A model generated the notes under the pieces. It ran no database searches, was not told the DNA's origin, and saw only the letters and a list, made by a program, of their open reading frames with translations. Positions 56,431 to 64,000 of a DNA stretch of 64,000 nucleotides are shown piece by piece; within the stretch, counting starts at the first letter, position 1, and each line of letters opens with the position of its first letter. Position numbers and translations under genes: made by a program. Source of the DNA: Alphaproteobacteria bacterium (GTDB lineage: Bacteria > Pseudomonadota > Alphaproteobacteria > SMXS01); NCBI GenBank assembly GCA_028284945.1, contig JANQQJ010000041.1, positions 62,001 through 126,000 of the forward strand, in the 5' to 3' direction.

Positions 56431-59400
56431 TTAGAAGTGGAGGCGAAGGCCGCCCGTGACCGAGTGCTCTTCGTAACCACCGCCGAACTCACCCTCGTAG
56501 TCGAGGAAGAGCGAGATCATTTCGCTGACGGAGGCGTTCACACCAACACCGAACAGGCCAGTGGTCTCGCGCGCAACCTCACCGAAGACGGTGAAGGAGC
56601 TGTTCGGGACGCCTTCGATGCGGCCGGTGATGGCCCGCAGGTCGTCTTCGAACTCATGCGCGATACCAGCGCGGAGGTAAGGCGTCCAGTGACCGCCATT
56701 GCCGGTCTTGAACGTCTTGGACACCCGCAACTGTGCGGTGACACGGAACGACTTGGCCGACTGTTCGTCGATCAGCAGGTTGAGGTTACCCGCACCAGTC
56801 TCGGCAAAGGCATCCTGCTCAACCTCGACCCAAGCCAGCCCGATTTCCGGGGTCAGCTTGATGCCGTTTTCACCGATGTCGAAGCTGTAGCCGGCTTTAC
56901 CGCTGATGTAAGCGAAGTCGCCGTCGTAGTCGGCCAAGGCCAGAGCATCGAAGCTACCGAACTGGCTACCGAACGAGATATCACGTTCACTGGTGAGATC
57001 CAGATCCCCAATACCACCCTGAATGTAGGCAAACAGGTCTTCAGTGAAGTAGCTGAGGTAGCCGCCGATGTTCCACTGGTCGATATCGCCTTCACCCGTG
57101 CGGCCATCAAAGTCGATGTCGGTGTTACCGAAGCCGCCCATGATGCCAATCAGCAGGGTGTTGTCGATGATCTCGTAGTCGAACCCGATGAAGCCGGAGA
57201 CCGTGTCGAAGTCATAGTTCAAGAACCCATCGTTCTCACTGACATCGACCGTGTCGAACTGACCGGCCACCCACACGGCCGCACGGTTATCGTCGCCACT
57301 GGCACCCGAGGTGGAGTTGTCAGTCACATTCATGACAACCCGCGAGGATGACGGTGCGGCACCGAACTGTGCTTCCAGCGTCCGCAGATAGACCTGACGG
57401 TCGTTCTGCATGGCAGCGTTGATCGCAGCTTCATTGAAGGCGTTGAACCATTCTGGGTTAATGCCCTCCAGGCCAGCAGCAATATTGTCGGCTTTGCCCA
57501 GGTAGGCGATCTGCTCATGGAGGCTATCCGTGTTCAGACCATACTGGGTAAAGCTGTCAATATAGGCACCGACCAGGTTCTGGTTCTGCGTGTTGCCCTT
57601 GTCGGCAAAGCTCGGGATCGAGATGATCCGGACCGTTTGCGGCAAGTACAGCAGCGCAGCCTTGAACACCTGAACGCGGACTTCCTCGTTCACATCCGGC
57701 GTCGACGGATCGTCATACTGAAGGACGATCGCACCGTCGTTCGGACCACCATCGAAGCCGAGGTCGGAGAACGTGCCGTTCACCGCGCCATCCGGCGTTT
57801 TGATGATGTCGTAAACGAGACCCATGTCGCTGTAGTCGGCCGTTGTGATCCGGTTGCCGTTCTCATCGACATCGGGAATACCGTCCGGTGTCGTGAAGGC
57901 CGGGTTCTCGGTCTCACAGTTCGGCGTACCATCAGGCGCATCGTCACAGCCCGTACCGCCGGTCGGAATGGTCGGCTCCGAACCGTTGGTCGTGACGTCA
58001 ACGAACTTGCCGTCAAGGACGATGTTCAGGCGGCCCGCCAGATTGGCGTTGCCATCTTCGACCGGCGTGATGACCTGAGCAACCGTGTCAGGAATGCCAT
58101 CCTGGCCAGGCTGGTTCGGTTCCATCGTGTCAGCGAAGATCAGGTCCTGCAGCACGTTGCCCGTACCCATGTCGAAGTCCGGAATACCATCACCCTGCGT
58201 ATCGTCGGTGATGTTACCCATTTCGTCCTGGGTCACGTTGTCGACGGTGTTGAAGTCATCAAGACCATCCGGCGCCGCCTCATTTTCAGGCGTGAACGGA
58301 TCATCCTGGATGATTTCACCAGTCATCGGATCCTGAGCAACCAGATCAACGGTTTCGAAGTCATTGATACCGTCAGGAGCGCTCTCATCGACGTCCGGCG
58401 TATTCGGATCGTCATTGAGGAACGCGCCGGTGTCCGGATCTTGAGCGCCGGTGTCGACGGGGCCGACCGTGAACAGGTCCTGCTTCTCGTCAACAATGGC
58501 TTTCTCTGCACCGGAGGCCACAACAACCAGCATATCGCTATCACCAATCATCGTACCGGCCGAGGAGATGTCGCTCAGGTCGGCCGTGAACTGGCTGCCC
58601 CAGCTCTTGACCACTTCGCGACCCTGGATCTCGGTTTCGATGCTTGTGGTAGCAAGCTCGCCTTCAATGACGTCACGACGGACATCGCCGGTGTCGGGAT
58701 CGAAGTCGTCAATGCCATCGGGTTCGAAGGCAGTGATCTCTCCGGTCATTTCGTCCTGGGTCAATGTGTCGATCGTCAGGAAGTCAGGAATGCCATCGCC
58801 AGTTTCACCGTCGGTGATATCACCCGTCGTCAGATCCTGCGTCACTTCGTCAACCGTGGCAAAGTCCTGAATACCATCCGGGCCGGCGCCAGTATCAGAA
58901 CCGTCCATCGGGTCCTGGCTAATGGCGTCAACCGGAACCACTTCACCGACAACATAGGTCGTGTAGTCAGTGACCGGGTCGGAGAAGTTGACGTTACCGA
59001 CAACAGTCAACGTACCGATCTTCGTGGTTTCATCACCCGGATTGATAGTGCCGTACTTCGGCGTATCAGACGGGAGATCGAACGGCATATCCATTGCGAT
59101 TTCTTCGCGGATGAAGTTCTCGGGAGCCACAAAGCCCTCAAGACGATCCGCAGCAATCGCGTTGCCGAGCGGATCAGCCGGCTGATCAACCAACGTGGTT
59201 TCGAAGGTCAGGTTCTGGAGAACGTTACCCGTTGCACCGTCGAAGTCGTCAACACCATCGGGTACGAAGGCGGTAATCACGCCTGCACCGTTCTGAGTGA
59301 CATTGTCGACCGTGGTGAAGTCAGGCAGACCGTCCGGGGCGCTTTCGTCCACGTCTGGCGTACCTGCATCATCGGGAATGTCCGCACCGGTAACCGGATC

Positions 59401-62400
59401 CTGCGCCTTGTTATCAACGGTCATGAAATCGTTGATACCGTCAGGTGCGCTTTCGTCCACGTCCGGCGTGTCCGGATCATCAGCCAAGAAAGACCCCGTG
59501 TCCGGATCCTGAGCGCCCGTGTCGACCGGAAGCGGATCAATGCTCGCAACCAGCTGACCGCGGATCATGATCGGTGAGACACGGCCGGTGACGTTAACAC
59601 CACCATTACCGCCCCGAACGCTGGGATCGGTAATAACCGTGCCGTGACCACCAAGGGTACCGCCACCAAGAACCTCAACCACCGGTGAGCTCAGCTCAGC
59701 CTGCGACTGCGGTTCGATCACGAACAGCGGCTCTTCGGTCGTCGGATCGAGATCCTGGTTACCATCACCATCGGCATCAAGCGGCACCAGCAGTGAGCCA
59801 CCGACATTCAGACGGCCATAGTGGATCTCTGTTGCCACGGTCTCCGTGATGAAGTTCGCCGGATCATTCAGCTCGTCATCGTCAAAGATGCCGTCACCAT
59901 TACGGTCAATCGGCATCGGCATGTCGATGGGAGCGCCGTCGATCGTCACGTTGCCGTTCAGATCCCACGTACCCGGGCCAACTTTGTAGAGCAGTTCGGC
60001 TTCGGTGAGCGTGCCGCCATAGACGCCACGGTCTTCACCAGTGCCTTCACCGTACAGAACCAGCGTGTCGATACCGACATCCGTCTGCTGCTCAACCTGA
60101 ACGATTTCCATCGCCGTGCCACCTTCGGACTCGTCGACTTCCGTTTCCGGATCGTCTACGACCATCACGATGGTCGGAACCATGGTCAGTTCAAGGTCTT
60201 GGCCAAGGTCGGCATTGCCGTCATTGACTGCATCGGTGTTCGGATCATCGAAGATGGAACCCGTACCCAGCGCCAGGATATCGTCACCGCCGTCGGTGTA
60301 GATGTCACCAAGGATGATGCCACCCGGGCTGTCGGTGACTTCACCGTCGTACTCACCTTCTGCTGTCCCGGTCTGGCTACCGCCATCCGGTACTGCTGGA
60401 AGGTCACCATCAGTGAAGCCCGTCAGGGTCTGAGCAGCGTTTCCGCCGAGCAGATTACCCGTGGACGGTGTGTTAACGATGATTTCAGAACCTTCGCCGC
60501 CCAGCACCGCAAACCGGTTGGTCTGCTGAACATTGACCATGCGCTCAATGGCAACATTGTCGACGACGTCGAAGTCGTTCATGCCATCGGGCACTTCGGC
60601 TGTAACGTTGCCGAGGTCATCCTGAGTAACCAGGTCAACCGGGACATCACCGAAGGCATCCGCGCCATCAATCAGACCGGCGTTGATGACAACCAGAATG
60701 TCGCCGTCAACCGACCCGACATTAGCAGGCTGCTGCTGATCATCATCACCTTCGGTACCTTCGGATTCGCCGTCCTGGCTGCCAAAGGCATTGATGGCCG
60801 CCACGGCCCCTTCAGGGAAGCCGATGGAGATGCCGGTGTCACCCTGCGTTTCCTCGTCCATGTCGTCGTCATCATCCATGGCAGGTGCCGGGGCCGGGAA
60901 TTCGCCGGTGCCGGTTACGCGGATAACGCCGTTGCCGAAGTTAACGATCAAGTTCTCCTTGTTCGTCTCTCCACCAACATAGATGCCAGCGTCTTCACCG
61001 GTGATCAGCGCGTCATTGGCGACAACATTATCGGTGCCGTTGATGGCGATACCGACATGCGTGCCCTGGATCAATCCGACTTCGCCGCCGCTGGCAATGA
61101 AGTTGTCATTGTCAACGGAGATACCGATTGAGCCTTCACCACCGGTACTGACGATCCGACCGTTGGCGTTGATGATGTCGTTGCTATCCCCGGCAAGAAT
61201 ACCGAACACACCGCCTTCAATCCAACCGCCCATATTGTTGACGTCGTTGAAGTCGAGCATGTCGATACCCGCTGAGTCATCATCCGGGTTCGGACCCGTG
61301 AAGCCCACACCACCCAGGATCGTGCCCGAGTTGTTGACGGTGCTGTTGTTGTCCAACTCGATGCCATCATCACGGTCGCCCTCAATTGTGCTGCCCGCGG
61401 TGTTGTAGATCGTGGTGGAGTTGGCGGCGGAGTCGATGCCGTCTTCTTCACCCCGGATGACACCGCCCAAAGCAACGCCGGCGTCGTCATCAAGCACATT
61501 GATCACGGGAGCGCCGAACTCATCAAACGTGAGCGTCCGGACCGGAACGTCGGTATCCGCGTTGATACCGTTCCAGATGGTGTTGCCTGTCGACGAGCTA
61601 TCAATGTGGACCCCGTCGCAATCCCGGCCATCGGCCTGGCACTGCAGCGAGCCACCAATGATCGACGATGTGCTGGCATTCAGGATCAGGTTGAAATTCG
61701 ACCCATCAACGATCAACACACCGTTGTCTTCGCCACGGACCGTGCCGCGGTTGAACAGGGTGTTGCTGTCGGCATTGTCATCGAATTCGACACCGTCGTC
61801 GTCACGCCCCTCGATTACACCTTCGATGGCATTGATAATCACATTGTTCGAAGAACCGCCGCTACTACCATTGACTTCGATGCCGTCTTCAGCACCGGAA
61901 ATCAGCCCGATGTTGATGACGTTATTGTTATCGGAGTTACCGGTACCGTCATCGTCACCGTCACCGATCGAAACACCGTCGGAGCCGGTTCCACGACCGC
62001 TCTGGATGTCCTGAGTAAGGTTCTCATCGAGCACCTCATTACCCATACCATCGTCCATGGTCGTGAAGTCCTGGACACCATCGCCAGTCGCCGCCGTCTG
62101 GGTACCGAAGGTCGGCCCCGGGGTCAGGTCCTGACTGATGTTGTCCTGTGCAATGGTGTTCTCTTGCGCACCTTCGCTGCGGATTACACCGGTTGCAGTG
62201 TTGAGCAGGAAGTTACCCGAACCGTCAATATCAACACCATCGTCGGCATTGTTGGGATCAGTGGTTCCATCGTCGGAGCTGATGTCGGCATAGTTGATCA
62301 CAACATTATCGTTGCCATCGATTTCAACGCCTTCATCACCGCCCTGGATGGACGAGCGTGAGCTACCAACAACGTTGTTAACCAACACGTTGTTAACGCC

Positions 62401-64000
62401 GTTCAGTTCAACACCATCGTCATCACCCGTTGCCGAGCCGTTATTCACGACCAGGTTCCGGTTCGCAACCTCGATCGCATCGTCGCCGGCATCGATAGTG
62501 CCGTTGTTGAAGATGCCACCAGCGTTACGGGCCAGAACAGACGTCGGGGCGCCCGGTTCCGGATTGTTGACGGTCACGAACGCATAGCCGTTGTCGTTGT
62601 TGGCGTTAATGCCGTCACCAATCTCCGTATTGATGGTCAGGTCACTGTTGTTTTCGACGTAGTTACGGTCTTCGACGTGAATACCGATGTTCTCAACGTC
62701 AATCGTGCCGTTATTGATGACAATATTGTCGTTGTTAACCTCGATGCCATTCCAACCGGTGATGGTGCCTTCGTTGACGACCTGATTGAAATCTTCAAGG
62801 AAGATGCCCGTACCGTCGTTGTTGTCGTCGGTATCGGCATTGATCGTGCCGGTGTTGACAACATCCCAGTAGCTGCCGGTCTCGGCAACGCTGTCATTGT
62901 TGTCGTTGCCGGTGATGCCATCATCGTCGGCATTAATCGTGCCGTTGAATTCGATGATTTCCCGTGAGGCTGCCGTGCCATTCTTGCCGAGAACGATACC
63001 GTCGTCCCAGGCGTTGATGATGATGTCGGCGATATTCCAGTCGTTATCGGAAGAGAAGTTCGTGATGCCATCGGCTTCGGCATAAAGTGAAACACCATTC
63101 AGGTTAAGGATGTTACCCACGCCTGAAACGTCCACGCCATCACCGCCAGCCCGAATGCTTTCGGCGACTGTGATGATGTTACCGGTGCCCGATACAGACA
63201 GACCGTCATCATCATCACCGCCACCGGCATTGATGCTGTTGACGGTTGCTTCGTTGGCATTGCCAGCGATCACCAGACCGGAGCCATCAAACGACGTCAG
63301 GTCGTTGGCGTCGAAGTCATTACCGTCGCCGGTAATGGAAGCCGCCGTACCCGTGGACCGTACATTGTTGTATTCAACAATGTTGCCTTCACCCGAGATC
63401 TGGACGCCATAGCCGTCTACAAATCCACCAAGATCCGTAAACGCCAGGCCGGAGATGCCGTTGCCGACTTTGCCGATGTCCGTGAAGAAGGACGCTGTGC
63501 CGTTGGTCTGATCAATGATGTAGATATCATCTTCAGTGCTGAGGCCATTCGAACCGGTCACGGCGTAAAGGACGTCGCCCGGACCAAACTCAAACTCGCC
63601 GTCAACGCCTGCACCGCCGCTGAACAAGAAGGTCAGCGAGCCGTCGCTCTTGTCGACGGAATTGAAGGAGCTGAAGTTTTGCAGCACAAGATCGCCGGTC
63701 GAGTCAGTGTCGATTGCAACACGGCTGTACTGATCGCCATTGTCGCCCAGCGCCACGGTTGCACCCGTATTCGGGTCAATCGTGAAGACTGAGTCTGACG
63801 GGGAGCCGATTCTGTTGACACCATAGAGCGTGTCGGTGGTGTCATCGTAGGTGATGCTTGATGCACTCGTAGCAAACCCGTTCAGCGTCGTAATCGCCGT
63901 CAACTCGCCCGTTTCCGGATCAAGCATCATGAGGCGAGGCGTATTCGTATCCGCATTGCCTTCCATGGCATAGACCTGACCCGTATCCGGATTGGATTCC
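56431..64000 (-). CDS. Giant autotransporter adhesin, 5' end outside window
   Basis: More than 2,520 residues are visible, with the start beyond the right edge: the frame stays open to 64000 (ESNPDTGQVYA precedes the first Met). In order, the sequence shows a beta-propeller-like N-terminus (LDPETGELTAITTLNG; about 1-170) and a long right-handed beta-helix passenger full of NNGTI and DDGIE rungs (about 180-1150). An Asp-rich repeat zone follows (about 1150-2080), then an autotransporter barrel (last 280 residues) ending GGLRLHF. The product is a cell-surface or secreted adhesin. A terminator follows at 56362. Confidence 0.92.
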   Translation of the reverse strand, partial: ESNPDTGQVYAMEGNADTNTPRLMMLDPETGELTAITTLNGFATSASSITYDDTTDTLYGVNRIGSPSDSVFTIDPNTGATVALGDNGDQYSRVAIDTDSTGDLVLQNFSSFNSVDKSDGSLTFLFSGGAGVDGEFEFGPGDVLYAVTGSNGLSTEDDIYIIDQTNGTASFFTDIGKVGNGISGLAFTDLGGFVDGYGVQISGEGNIVEYNNVRSTGTAASITGDGNDFDANDLTSFDGSGLVIAGNANEATVNSINAGGGDDDDGLSVSGTGNIITVAESIRAGGDGVDVSGVGNILNLNGVSLYAEADGITNFSSDNDWNIADIIINAWDDGIVLGKNGTAASREIIEFNGTINADDDGITGNDNNDSVAETGSYWDVVNTGTINADTDDNNDGTGIFLEDFNQVVNEGTITGWNGIEVNNDNIVINNGTIDVENIGIHVEDRNYVENNSDLTINTEIGDGINANNDNGYAFVTVNNPEPGAPTSVLARNAGGIFNNGTIDAGDDAIEVANRNLVVNNGSATGDDDGVELNGVNNVLVNNVVGSSRSSIQGGDEGVEIDGNDNVVINYADISSDDGTTDPNNADDGVDIDGSGNFLLNTATGVIRSEGAQENTIAQDNISQDLTPGPTFGTQTAATGDGVQDFTTMDDGMGNEVLDENLTQDIQSGRGTGSDGVSIGDGDDDGTGNSDNNNVINIGLISGAEDGIEVNGSSGGSSNNVIINAIEGVIEGRDDDGVEFDDNADSNTLFNRGTVRGEDNGVLIVDGSNFNLILNASTSSIIGGSLQCQADGRDCDGVHIDSSSTGNTIWNGINADTDVPVRTLTFDEFGAPVINVLDDDAGVALGGVIRGEEDGIDSAANSTTIYNTAGSTIEGDRDDGIELDNNSTVNNSGTILGGVGFTGPNPDDDSAGIDMLDFNDVNNMGGWIEGGVFGILAGDSNDIINANGRIVSTGGEGSIGISVDNDNFIASGGEVGLIQGTHVGIAINGTDNVVANDALITGEDAGIYVGGETNKENLIVNFGNGVIRVTGTGEFPAPAPAMDDDDDMDEETQGDTGISIGFPEGAVAAINAFGSQDGESEGTEGDDDQQQPANVGSVDGDILVVINAGLIDGADAFGDVPVDLVTQDDLGNVTAEVPDGMNDFDVVDNVAIERMVNVQQTNRFAVLGGEGSEIIVNTPSTGNLLGGNAAQTLTGFTDGDLPAVPDGGSQTGTAEGEYDGEVTDSPGGIILGDIYTDGGDDILALGTGSIFDDPNTDAVNDGNADLGQDLELTMVPTIVMVVDDPETEVDESEGGTAMEIVQVEQQTDVGIDTLVLYGEGTGEDRGVYGGTLTEAELLYKVGPGTWDLNGNVTIDGAPIDMPMPIDRNGDGIFDDDELNDPANFITETVATEIHYGRLNVGGSLLVPLDADGDGNQDLDPTTEEPLFVIEPQSQAELSSPVVEVLGGGTLGGHGTVITDPSVRGGNGGVNVTGRVSPIMIRGQLVASIDPLPVDTGAQDPDTGSFLADDPDTPDVDESAPDGINDFMTVDNKAQDPVTGADIPDDAGTPDVDESAPDGLPDFTTVDNVTQNGAGVITAFVPDGVDDFDGATGNVLQNLTFETTLVDQPADPLGNAIAADRLEGFVAPENFIREEIAMDMPFDLPSDTPKYGTINPGDETTKIGTLTVVGNVNFSDPVTDYTTYVVGEVVPVDAISQDPMDGSDTGAGPDGIQDFATVDEVTQDLTTGDITDGETGDGIPDFLTIDTLTQDEMTGEITAFEPDGIDDFDPDTGDVRRDVIEGELATTSIETEIQGREVVKSWGSQFTADLSDISSAGTMIGDSDMLVVVASGAEKAIVDEKQDLFTVGPVDTGAQDPDTGAFLNDDPNTPDVDESAPDGINDFETVDLVAQDPMTGEIIQDDPFTPENEAAPDGLDDFNTVDNVTQDEMGNITDDTQGDGIPDFDMGTGNVLQDLIFADTMEPNQPGQDGIPDTVAQVITPVEDGNANLAGRLNIVLDGKFVDVTTNGSEPTIPTGGTGCDDAPDGTPNCETENPAFTTPDGIPDVDENGNRITTADYSDMGLVYDIIKTPDGAVNGTFSDLGFDGGPNDGAIVLQYDDPSTPDVNEEVRVQVFKAALLYLPQTVRIISIPSFADKGNTQNQNLVGAYIDSFTQYGLNTDSLHEQIAYLGKADNIAAGLEGINPEWFNAFNEAAINAAMQNDRQVYLRTLEAQFGAAPSSSRVVMNVTDNSTSGASGDDNRAAVWVAGQFDTVDVSENDGFLNYDFDTVSGFIGFDYEIIDNTLLIGIMGGFGNTDIDFDGRTGEGDIDQWNIGGYLSYFTEDLFAYIQGGIGDLDLTSERDISFGSQFGSFDALALADYDGDFAYISGKAGYSFDIGENGIKLTPEIGLAWVEVEQDAFAETGAGNLNLLIDEQSAKSFRVTAQLRVSKTFKTGNGGHWTPYLRAGIAHEFEDDLRAITGRIEGVPNSSFTVFGEVARETTGLFGVGVNASVSEMISLFLDYEGEFGGGYEEHSVTGGLRLHF
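58150..59530 (-). repeat. Asp-rich tandem repeats within the autotransporter
   Basis: Three long blocks are seen, at about 59210-59530, 58690-58945 and 58150-58470. Each unit reads roughly [TA]QDPxTGxxxxDDPxTPDVDESAPDG[IL]xDFxTVD. Shorter copies occur near 60570-60640 and 62010-62160. The first and third blocks are also close in DNA. The Asp/Gly pattern resembles calcium-binding thrombospondin-type-3 repeats; the family is not identified. Confidence 0.8.

Follow-up and report, generated by a model that had tools for sequence, protein, structure and literature searches.

Introduction

AIDA-I/Ag43 and pertactin are type Va autotransporters with large passengers. The RTX (HemolysinCabind) nonapeptide repeats belong to type I secreted proteins (reviewed in PMC3034196). 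Here, we describe an aspartate-rich repeat, designated unit A, in a giant autotransporter of an alphaproteobacterium, and compare it with these systems and with thrombospondin type-3 repeats. The DNA analysed is a stretch of 64,000 nucleotides (the window), to which all coordinates refer.

A giant type Va autotransporter carries the repeats in its passenger

The repeats are encoded in a reading frame on the minus strand, which comprises 5630 aa when read from the window's own assembly and has a signal-peptide-like start and a barrel at its end. The N-terminal signal peptide (MHLFINN...TPAYA; the stretch MHLFINNIINLKITDAAKVAALGFALTLVAWSGLGTVTPAYA-AC at the start of the frame) was read directly from the sequence. 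The part within the window comprises the following features:

56431 to 63999, minus strand: C-terminal 2522 aa of the autotransporter frame, open upstream past the window end
56494 to 57276, minus strand: autotransporter beta-barrel PF03797 (residues 2242-2502 of these 2522 aa; full-length profile, E = 9e-56)

The barrel is also matched by TIGR01414 of NCBIfam (E = 2.3e-30). With signal peptide and barrel on one chain, the 5630-aa protein is a giant type Va autotransporter. The frame and its PF03797 barrel bear out a preliminary description of this DNA, which had placed the repeats in the passenger of a giant autotransporter. The same description had called the passenger a beta-helix; this is supported in its upstream part, where PF13229 matches at E = 5.6e-5, below its curated cut-off, while for the stem itself, whose insert-free profile yields weak PDB matches only, we infer this fold.

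A propeller-like stretch in the middle of the passenger (63409-63999, minus strand, continuing beyond the window) matches DUF4394 (E = 3.6e-6, below cut-off) and Lactonase (E = 4.5e-4), and is bordered by beta-helix-type repeats on both sides. Upstream of the window, the same gene (L006/L007) encodes about 3000 aa more of passenger with very regular INGDDNxVDxGxITG-type repeats, which match PF13229 (E ~5e-5) and DUF3060 (E ~3e-5). Further autotransporters of this kind are encoded in the same genome on contigs 40 (L053), 37, 7 and 32, with frames of 3928, 954, 1852 and 4287 aa. Unit A is absent from the L053 frame, and the genome-wide search for unit A matched none of these other autotransporters.

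Unit A occurs in three triads and a single copy

The unit has the consensus [TAS]Q[DNG]-x(1-3)-x-G-x(n)-[PG]DG-x-x-DF, with a period of 25-27 aa in the short and 35-36 aa in the long form. The latter is represented by four units, which owe their length to an internal acidic segment resembling DDPxTPDVDES. The recurring unit QDPxTG...DDPxTPDVDESAPDGINDFxTVD quoted in the preliminary description is present in frame at the places reported and corresponds to this long form; likewise, the aspartate-rich character and the unit's own TQDxxTGxI segment were confirmed in the sequence. The copies, all in frame, are listed with the stem loops (s0 to s3) that hold them:

58156 to 58446, minus strand: triad 3 (loop s3), with long A/B-hybrid units at 58339-58446 and 58234-58338 and a short unit at 58156-58233
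58684 to 58920, minus strand: triad 2 (loop s2), with three short units at 58843-58920, 58762-58842 and 58684-58761
59224 to 59514, minus strand: triad 1 (loop s1), with long hybrid units at 59407-59514 and 59299-59406 and a short unit at 59224-59298
60553 to 60627, minus strand: single unit A (loop s0), with the flank PVDLVTQDD, which is found in orthologues at s3
62041 to 62136, minus strand: SQDLTPGPTFGTQTAATGDGVQDFTTMDD, a degenerate stretch resembling the unit, upstream in the passenger, with a weak profile match (E = 0.003)

The frame within the window contains 11 DG-x-x-DF motifs, ten of them in good copies and one (near 62085) in the degenerate copy, which brings the total to 10 or 11 units. 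The blocks of repeats noticed earlier are real, but their count was not: there are three triads instead of two blocks, plus the single unit and the degenerate stretch. When triad 3 was used as query in a whole-genome search, triad 1 was recovered at E = 2.6e-33 and triad 2 at ~1e-7, and the triads are therefore homologous rather than alike by chance. All three are strongly acidic, with net charges of -27, -26 and -32.

An antisense open frame of 686 aa (57517-59577, plus strand) runs through the triads. NCBIfam gives no match to it, and instead of a gene it is probably a by-product of codon usage, that is, of GAC/GAT-rich coding on the opposite strand.

The stem loops serve as slots for acidic cassettes

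The orthologue set comprises seven members, mostly MAGs, of the same alphaproteobacterial family and includes no second genome of the same genus; G000 denotes the window's genome, and G001, G002, G004, G005, G007 and G008 the orthologue genomes. When genome contigs were searched with only the triad, no relatives were obtained; a stem profile then gave five loci. The contig CALQFM020000097.1 (L023 / L055), deposited as Candidatus Kuenenia stuttgartiensis, is that of G005, belongs to the same family as the window and is apparently a mislabelled MAG.

Alignment to the orthologues places the units between conserved stem segments. Loop s3 holds unit A in all seven orthologues, with one unit per relative, and further copies are present at s1 in G004, G007 and G008, at sL (after RLNIGA) in G004 and at s0 in G001. 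The comparison of copy numbers proposed in the preliminary description, made here across genomes of the family, gives 1-3 units in the orthologues and 10 or 11 in the window's protein; the reading frame, whose loss in other isolates had been named as a counter-argument, is kept. Moreover, there are full-length paralogues with the same stem and barrel that are free of any unit A.

The stem contains two further kinds of acidic module, namely unit B, which reads DDPxTxDVDES-xGGTA in orthologue slots, and canonical calcium-type loops:

60112 to 60156, minus strand: unit B loop DDPETEVDESEGGTA, at the same place in 6 of 6 orthologues
57682 to 57714, minus strand: unit B loop DDPSTPDVNEE, preceding the barrel linker, in paralogues too
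59872 to 59907, minus strand: canonical DxNxDGxxD calcium-type loop DRNGDGIFDDDE
59743 to 59778, minus strand: DADGDGNQDLDP, the other canonical loop of calcium type, where another species holds unit A in the same slot

At 59872-59907, a DxDxDG or DxNxDG loop is present in five of the six orthologues with a full stem, and the variant DGNGNG in G007. Outside the family, unit B gives scattered weak single matches in frames of other families, the best in a frame of 5980 aa (G270:C1:2259897, E = 1.5e-5) and another in one of 8257 aa (G220:C1:1333762, E = 9e-4). Because such matches occur, giant surface proteins may use the DDPxTPDVDE segment more commonly as a linker.

The content of a given loop differs between species. 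Loop s0 holds unit A in G000 and G001 and unit B in G004 and, by orthologue alignment, in G002 and G007. Loop sL is occupied by unit A in G004, by unit B in G002, by a canonical DxDxDG loop in G000 and elsewhere by other acidic filler, and s2 by three A units in G000, by unit B in G001, G004, G007 and G008 and by a cassette confined to G002. To judge from these alignments, the stem loops are interchangeable slots, and it varies with the species whether one takes up unit A, unit B, a loop of calcium type or some other acidic cassette. The single inserted repeat zone envisaged in the preliminary description does not match this arrangement, as the units occupy at least four separate loops and are swappable there with other acidic cassettes.

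Several cassettes recur within one protein. Among the proteins examined, DGVTPLGPDG is private to G001, where it is present at both s0 and s3, and VLDxEGxPVLDExDxPTYT to G002, where it is present at both s1 and s2; neither recurrence was obtained in composition-matched shuffles (0/2000 each). The hybrid units of G000 are likewise common to triads 1 and 3. Private cassettes in at least two loops of one protein, in three lineages, suggest that cassettes were copied from loop to loop within one gene. A permutation test on 21 units supports copying only mildly: for nine of them the nearest neighbour lies in a different loop of their own protein, 4.5 being expected and 62 of 2000 permutations reaching as high a number, since the s1 units of G004 and G007 group by site.

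As to direction, PVD stands before the first unit in each of the loops s0, s1, s2 and s3 of G000. In the relatives, the flank before the s3 unit is PVD in G004, G007 and G008, TVD in G002 and G005 and PID in G001, and that before the s1 unit is GDL in G004, G007 and G008. In addition, the G000 s0 unit scores best with the s3 units of G004 and G002 and not with G001 s0. The flank pattern together with these scores points to s3 as the probable donor loop. A wider reading, in which the stem loops of the whole autotransporter family form a cassette system, a few acidic modules having been copied repeatedly from loop to loop, independently in each lineage, and having re-dressed the surface while the scaffold stayed untouched, is one that we regard as tentative at best.

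Unit A shares half of a calcium loop and matches no named family

The repeat had been described as belonging to no recognised family, and this holds: no repeat model of Pfam or NCBIfam matches unit A or the triads, the thrombospondin type-3 models PF02412 and PF18884 have no match anywhere in the genome at E <= 10, and a PDB search with a profile built from the units retrieved no calcium-repeat structure. Nothing credible as a named repeat family emerged from any of these searches, and the direct profile match that would have contradicted the description did not occur; matches to DUF6002, BamM and bottromycin lay far under the cut-offs and are not credible. A literature search, judged by title and abstract, found no paper describing unit A. 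Arrays of the RTX nonapeptide GGxGxDxUx are absent from the triads, which are without Pfam match and have a period of 25-36 aa.

The proposed likeness to calcium-binding type-3 repeats stands for the DG--D half of the loop, but neither for the first half nor for profile matches. Within the ligand set DxDxDGxxD, positions 5, 6 and 9 (D5, G6, D9) are (nearly) invariant in 22 units, whereas three of the 22 have D at position 1 and 12, the majority, have K or A at position 3. By the available tests, unit A is not a thrombospondin type-3 repeat; its descent from degenerated canonical calcium loops or convergence on them is possible, because the stem has canonical loops at 59872-59907 and 59743-59778.

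The units might nevertheless be variant thrombospondin type-3/EF-hand repeats that bind Ca2+ via the DG--D half loop and preceding acidic residues and so stiffen the stem in a calcium-rich exterior. Some copies do fit DxxxDGxxD (e.g., DTQGDGIPDF), true DxDxDGxxD loops are present in the same stem, and sL swaps such a loop with unit A. Set against the poor conservation of positions 1 and 3 and the lack of model and structure matches, this leaves the explanation unlikely in our view, despite the near invariance of D5, G6 and D9.

The triad duplication is old and its copies are constrained

The preliminary description had noted two blocks about 1.07 kb apart. Similarity at a spacing of 1068 nt was indeed found (58286-58461 versus 59354-59529, 74% identity). 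The blocks had been called nearly the same in DNA and taken as a sign of recent duplication, which is ruled out: the two 71-nt blocks are identical at 56 of 71 positions (79%), and triads 1 and 3 as a whole share 66% nucleotide and 63% amino acid identity. Between these triads, dS is 1.26 (NG86) or 1.49 (YN00), which is near saturation and makes the age imprecise, dN is 0.29-0.31 and dN/dS is ~0.2-0.25. The same codon is used at 48 of 78 identical residues, with 38 expected from the codon bias of the gene. This divergence, together with dS, dN/dS and codon sharing, indicates that the duplication is old and that both copies were held to their sequence; on codon comparison, they appear to have been under purifying selection ever since. 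Tandem Repeats Finder detects no tandem array at the repeats at the DNA level, and a minisatellite or slippage array was rejected.

These values also bear on neutral length expansion, in which a loop could take any soluble acidic filler and the repeats would be functionless by-products of slippage and unequal recombination. Unrelated acidic fillers do occupy the same loops in different species (s2, for instance, carries triad A, unit B or the cassette of G002), and the paralogues without inserts are still full-length. However, a dN/dS of ~0.2-0.25 between triads, the invariance of Q, G, DG and DF across genera (21 units from seven orthologues) and the retention of the s3 unit in every orthologue make neutral expansion distinctly improbable.

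Unit A appears confined to one family

A whole-genome search found unit A in no other gene of the window's genome. Profile searches covering 385 genomes from the class and 398 from the phylum returned nothing credible outside the family, where the best matches (E ~0.001) cover part of the unit only; in plasmids, unit A was not found, nor were relatives in viral contigs. With no credible copy in another gene, on a plasmid or in other families of the class and phylum, unit A appears restricted to one family across the genomes searched. These negative searches, and the fact that one unit is enough in relatives, leave hardly any probability for an independent folded domain or mobile in-frame element that was inserted and is unrelated to the stem instead of an expanded loop, even though triads 1 and 3 are sharp-edged (PVDTG to NLTFETT/DLIFADT) within unrelated surrounding sequence.

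Discussion

We lean, with some reserve, towards the explanation that the repeats are acidic cassettes in surface loops of the membrane-proximal stem, which arose from a founding unit at s3. This unit would have been one motif of ~26 aa, common to all orthologues, that was tripled in the window's lineage. Two of the three s3 units would then have gained the acidic unit-B-like segment DDPxTPDVDES, and copies would have reached s0, s1 and s2 via old in-frame intragenic duplication or conversion, with purifying selection acting on both triad copies after the spread. Anatomy, loop placement, orthologue comparison, age, purifying constraint and family restriction are matters of observation. More tentatively, the units may project from the stem as short beta-rich hairpins near the outer membrane, where they would extend the stem and bring in negative charge, each triad having a net charge between -26 and -32. 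They might bind divalent cations loosely or act as electrostatic spacers, and not as classical calcium loops; their function would be that of acidic, possibly ion-binding stem decorations.

If this explanation is true, the protein is a clear case of a beta-helix surface protein that diversifies by swapping loop cassettes and raising their number, and the loop that served as source can still be recognised. The collected units also define a repeat without a name, which databases leave unlabelled and in which Q, G, DG and DF are invariant. The interest is mainly for autotransporter evolution, and a wider question is touched only once a function is shown.

Thrombospondin type-3 repeats (PF02412) and their bacterial counterparts (PF18884) resemble unit A in aspartate richness, in the DGxxD half loop, and in being tandem and extracellular; unit A differs in its period of 25-36 aa, its own TQDxxGxxT segment, the unconserved ligand positions 1 and 3 and the lack of a profile match. 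RTX repeats (PMC3034196) share richness in glycine and aspartate and likewise occur in extracellular giants, whereas the triads have neither GGxGxDxUx nonapeptide arrays nor a Pfam match, and export is of type V instead of type I. With type Va autotransporters of the AIDA-I/Ag43 and pertactin kind, the protein shares a signal peptide, a long and probably beta-helix-like passenger, a C-terminal stem of the GTL..G type and a PF03797 barrel. In contrast to these, it comprises 5630 aa and has acidic tandem cassettes in several stem loops as well as a DUF4394-like propeller-type stretch in the passenger. None of the libraries searched has a name for unit A, and the point of interest is that the loops are used like slots.
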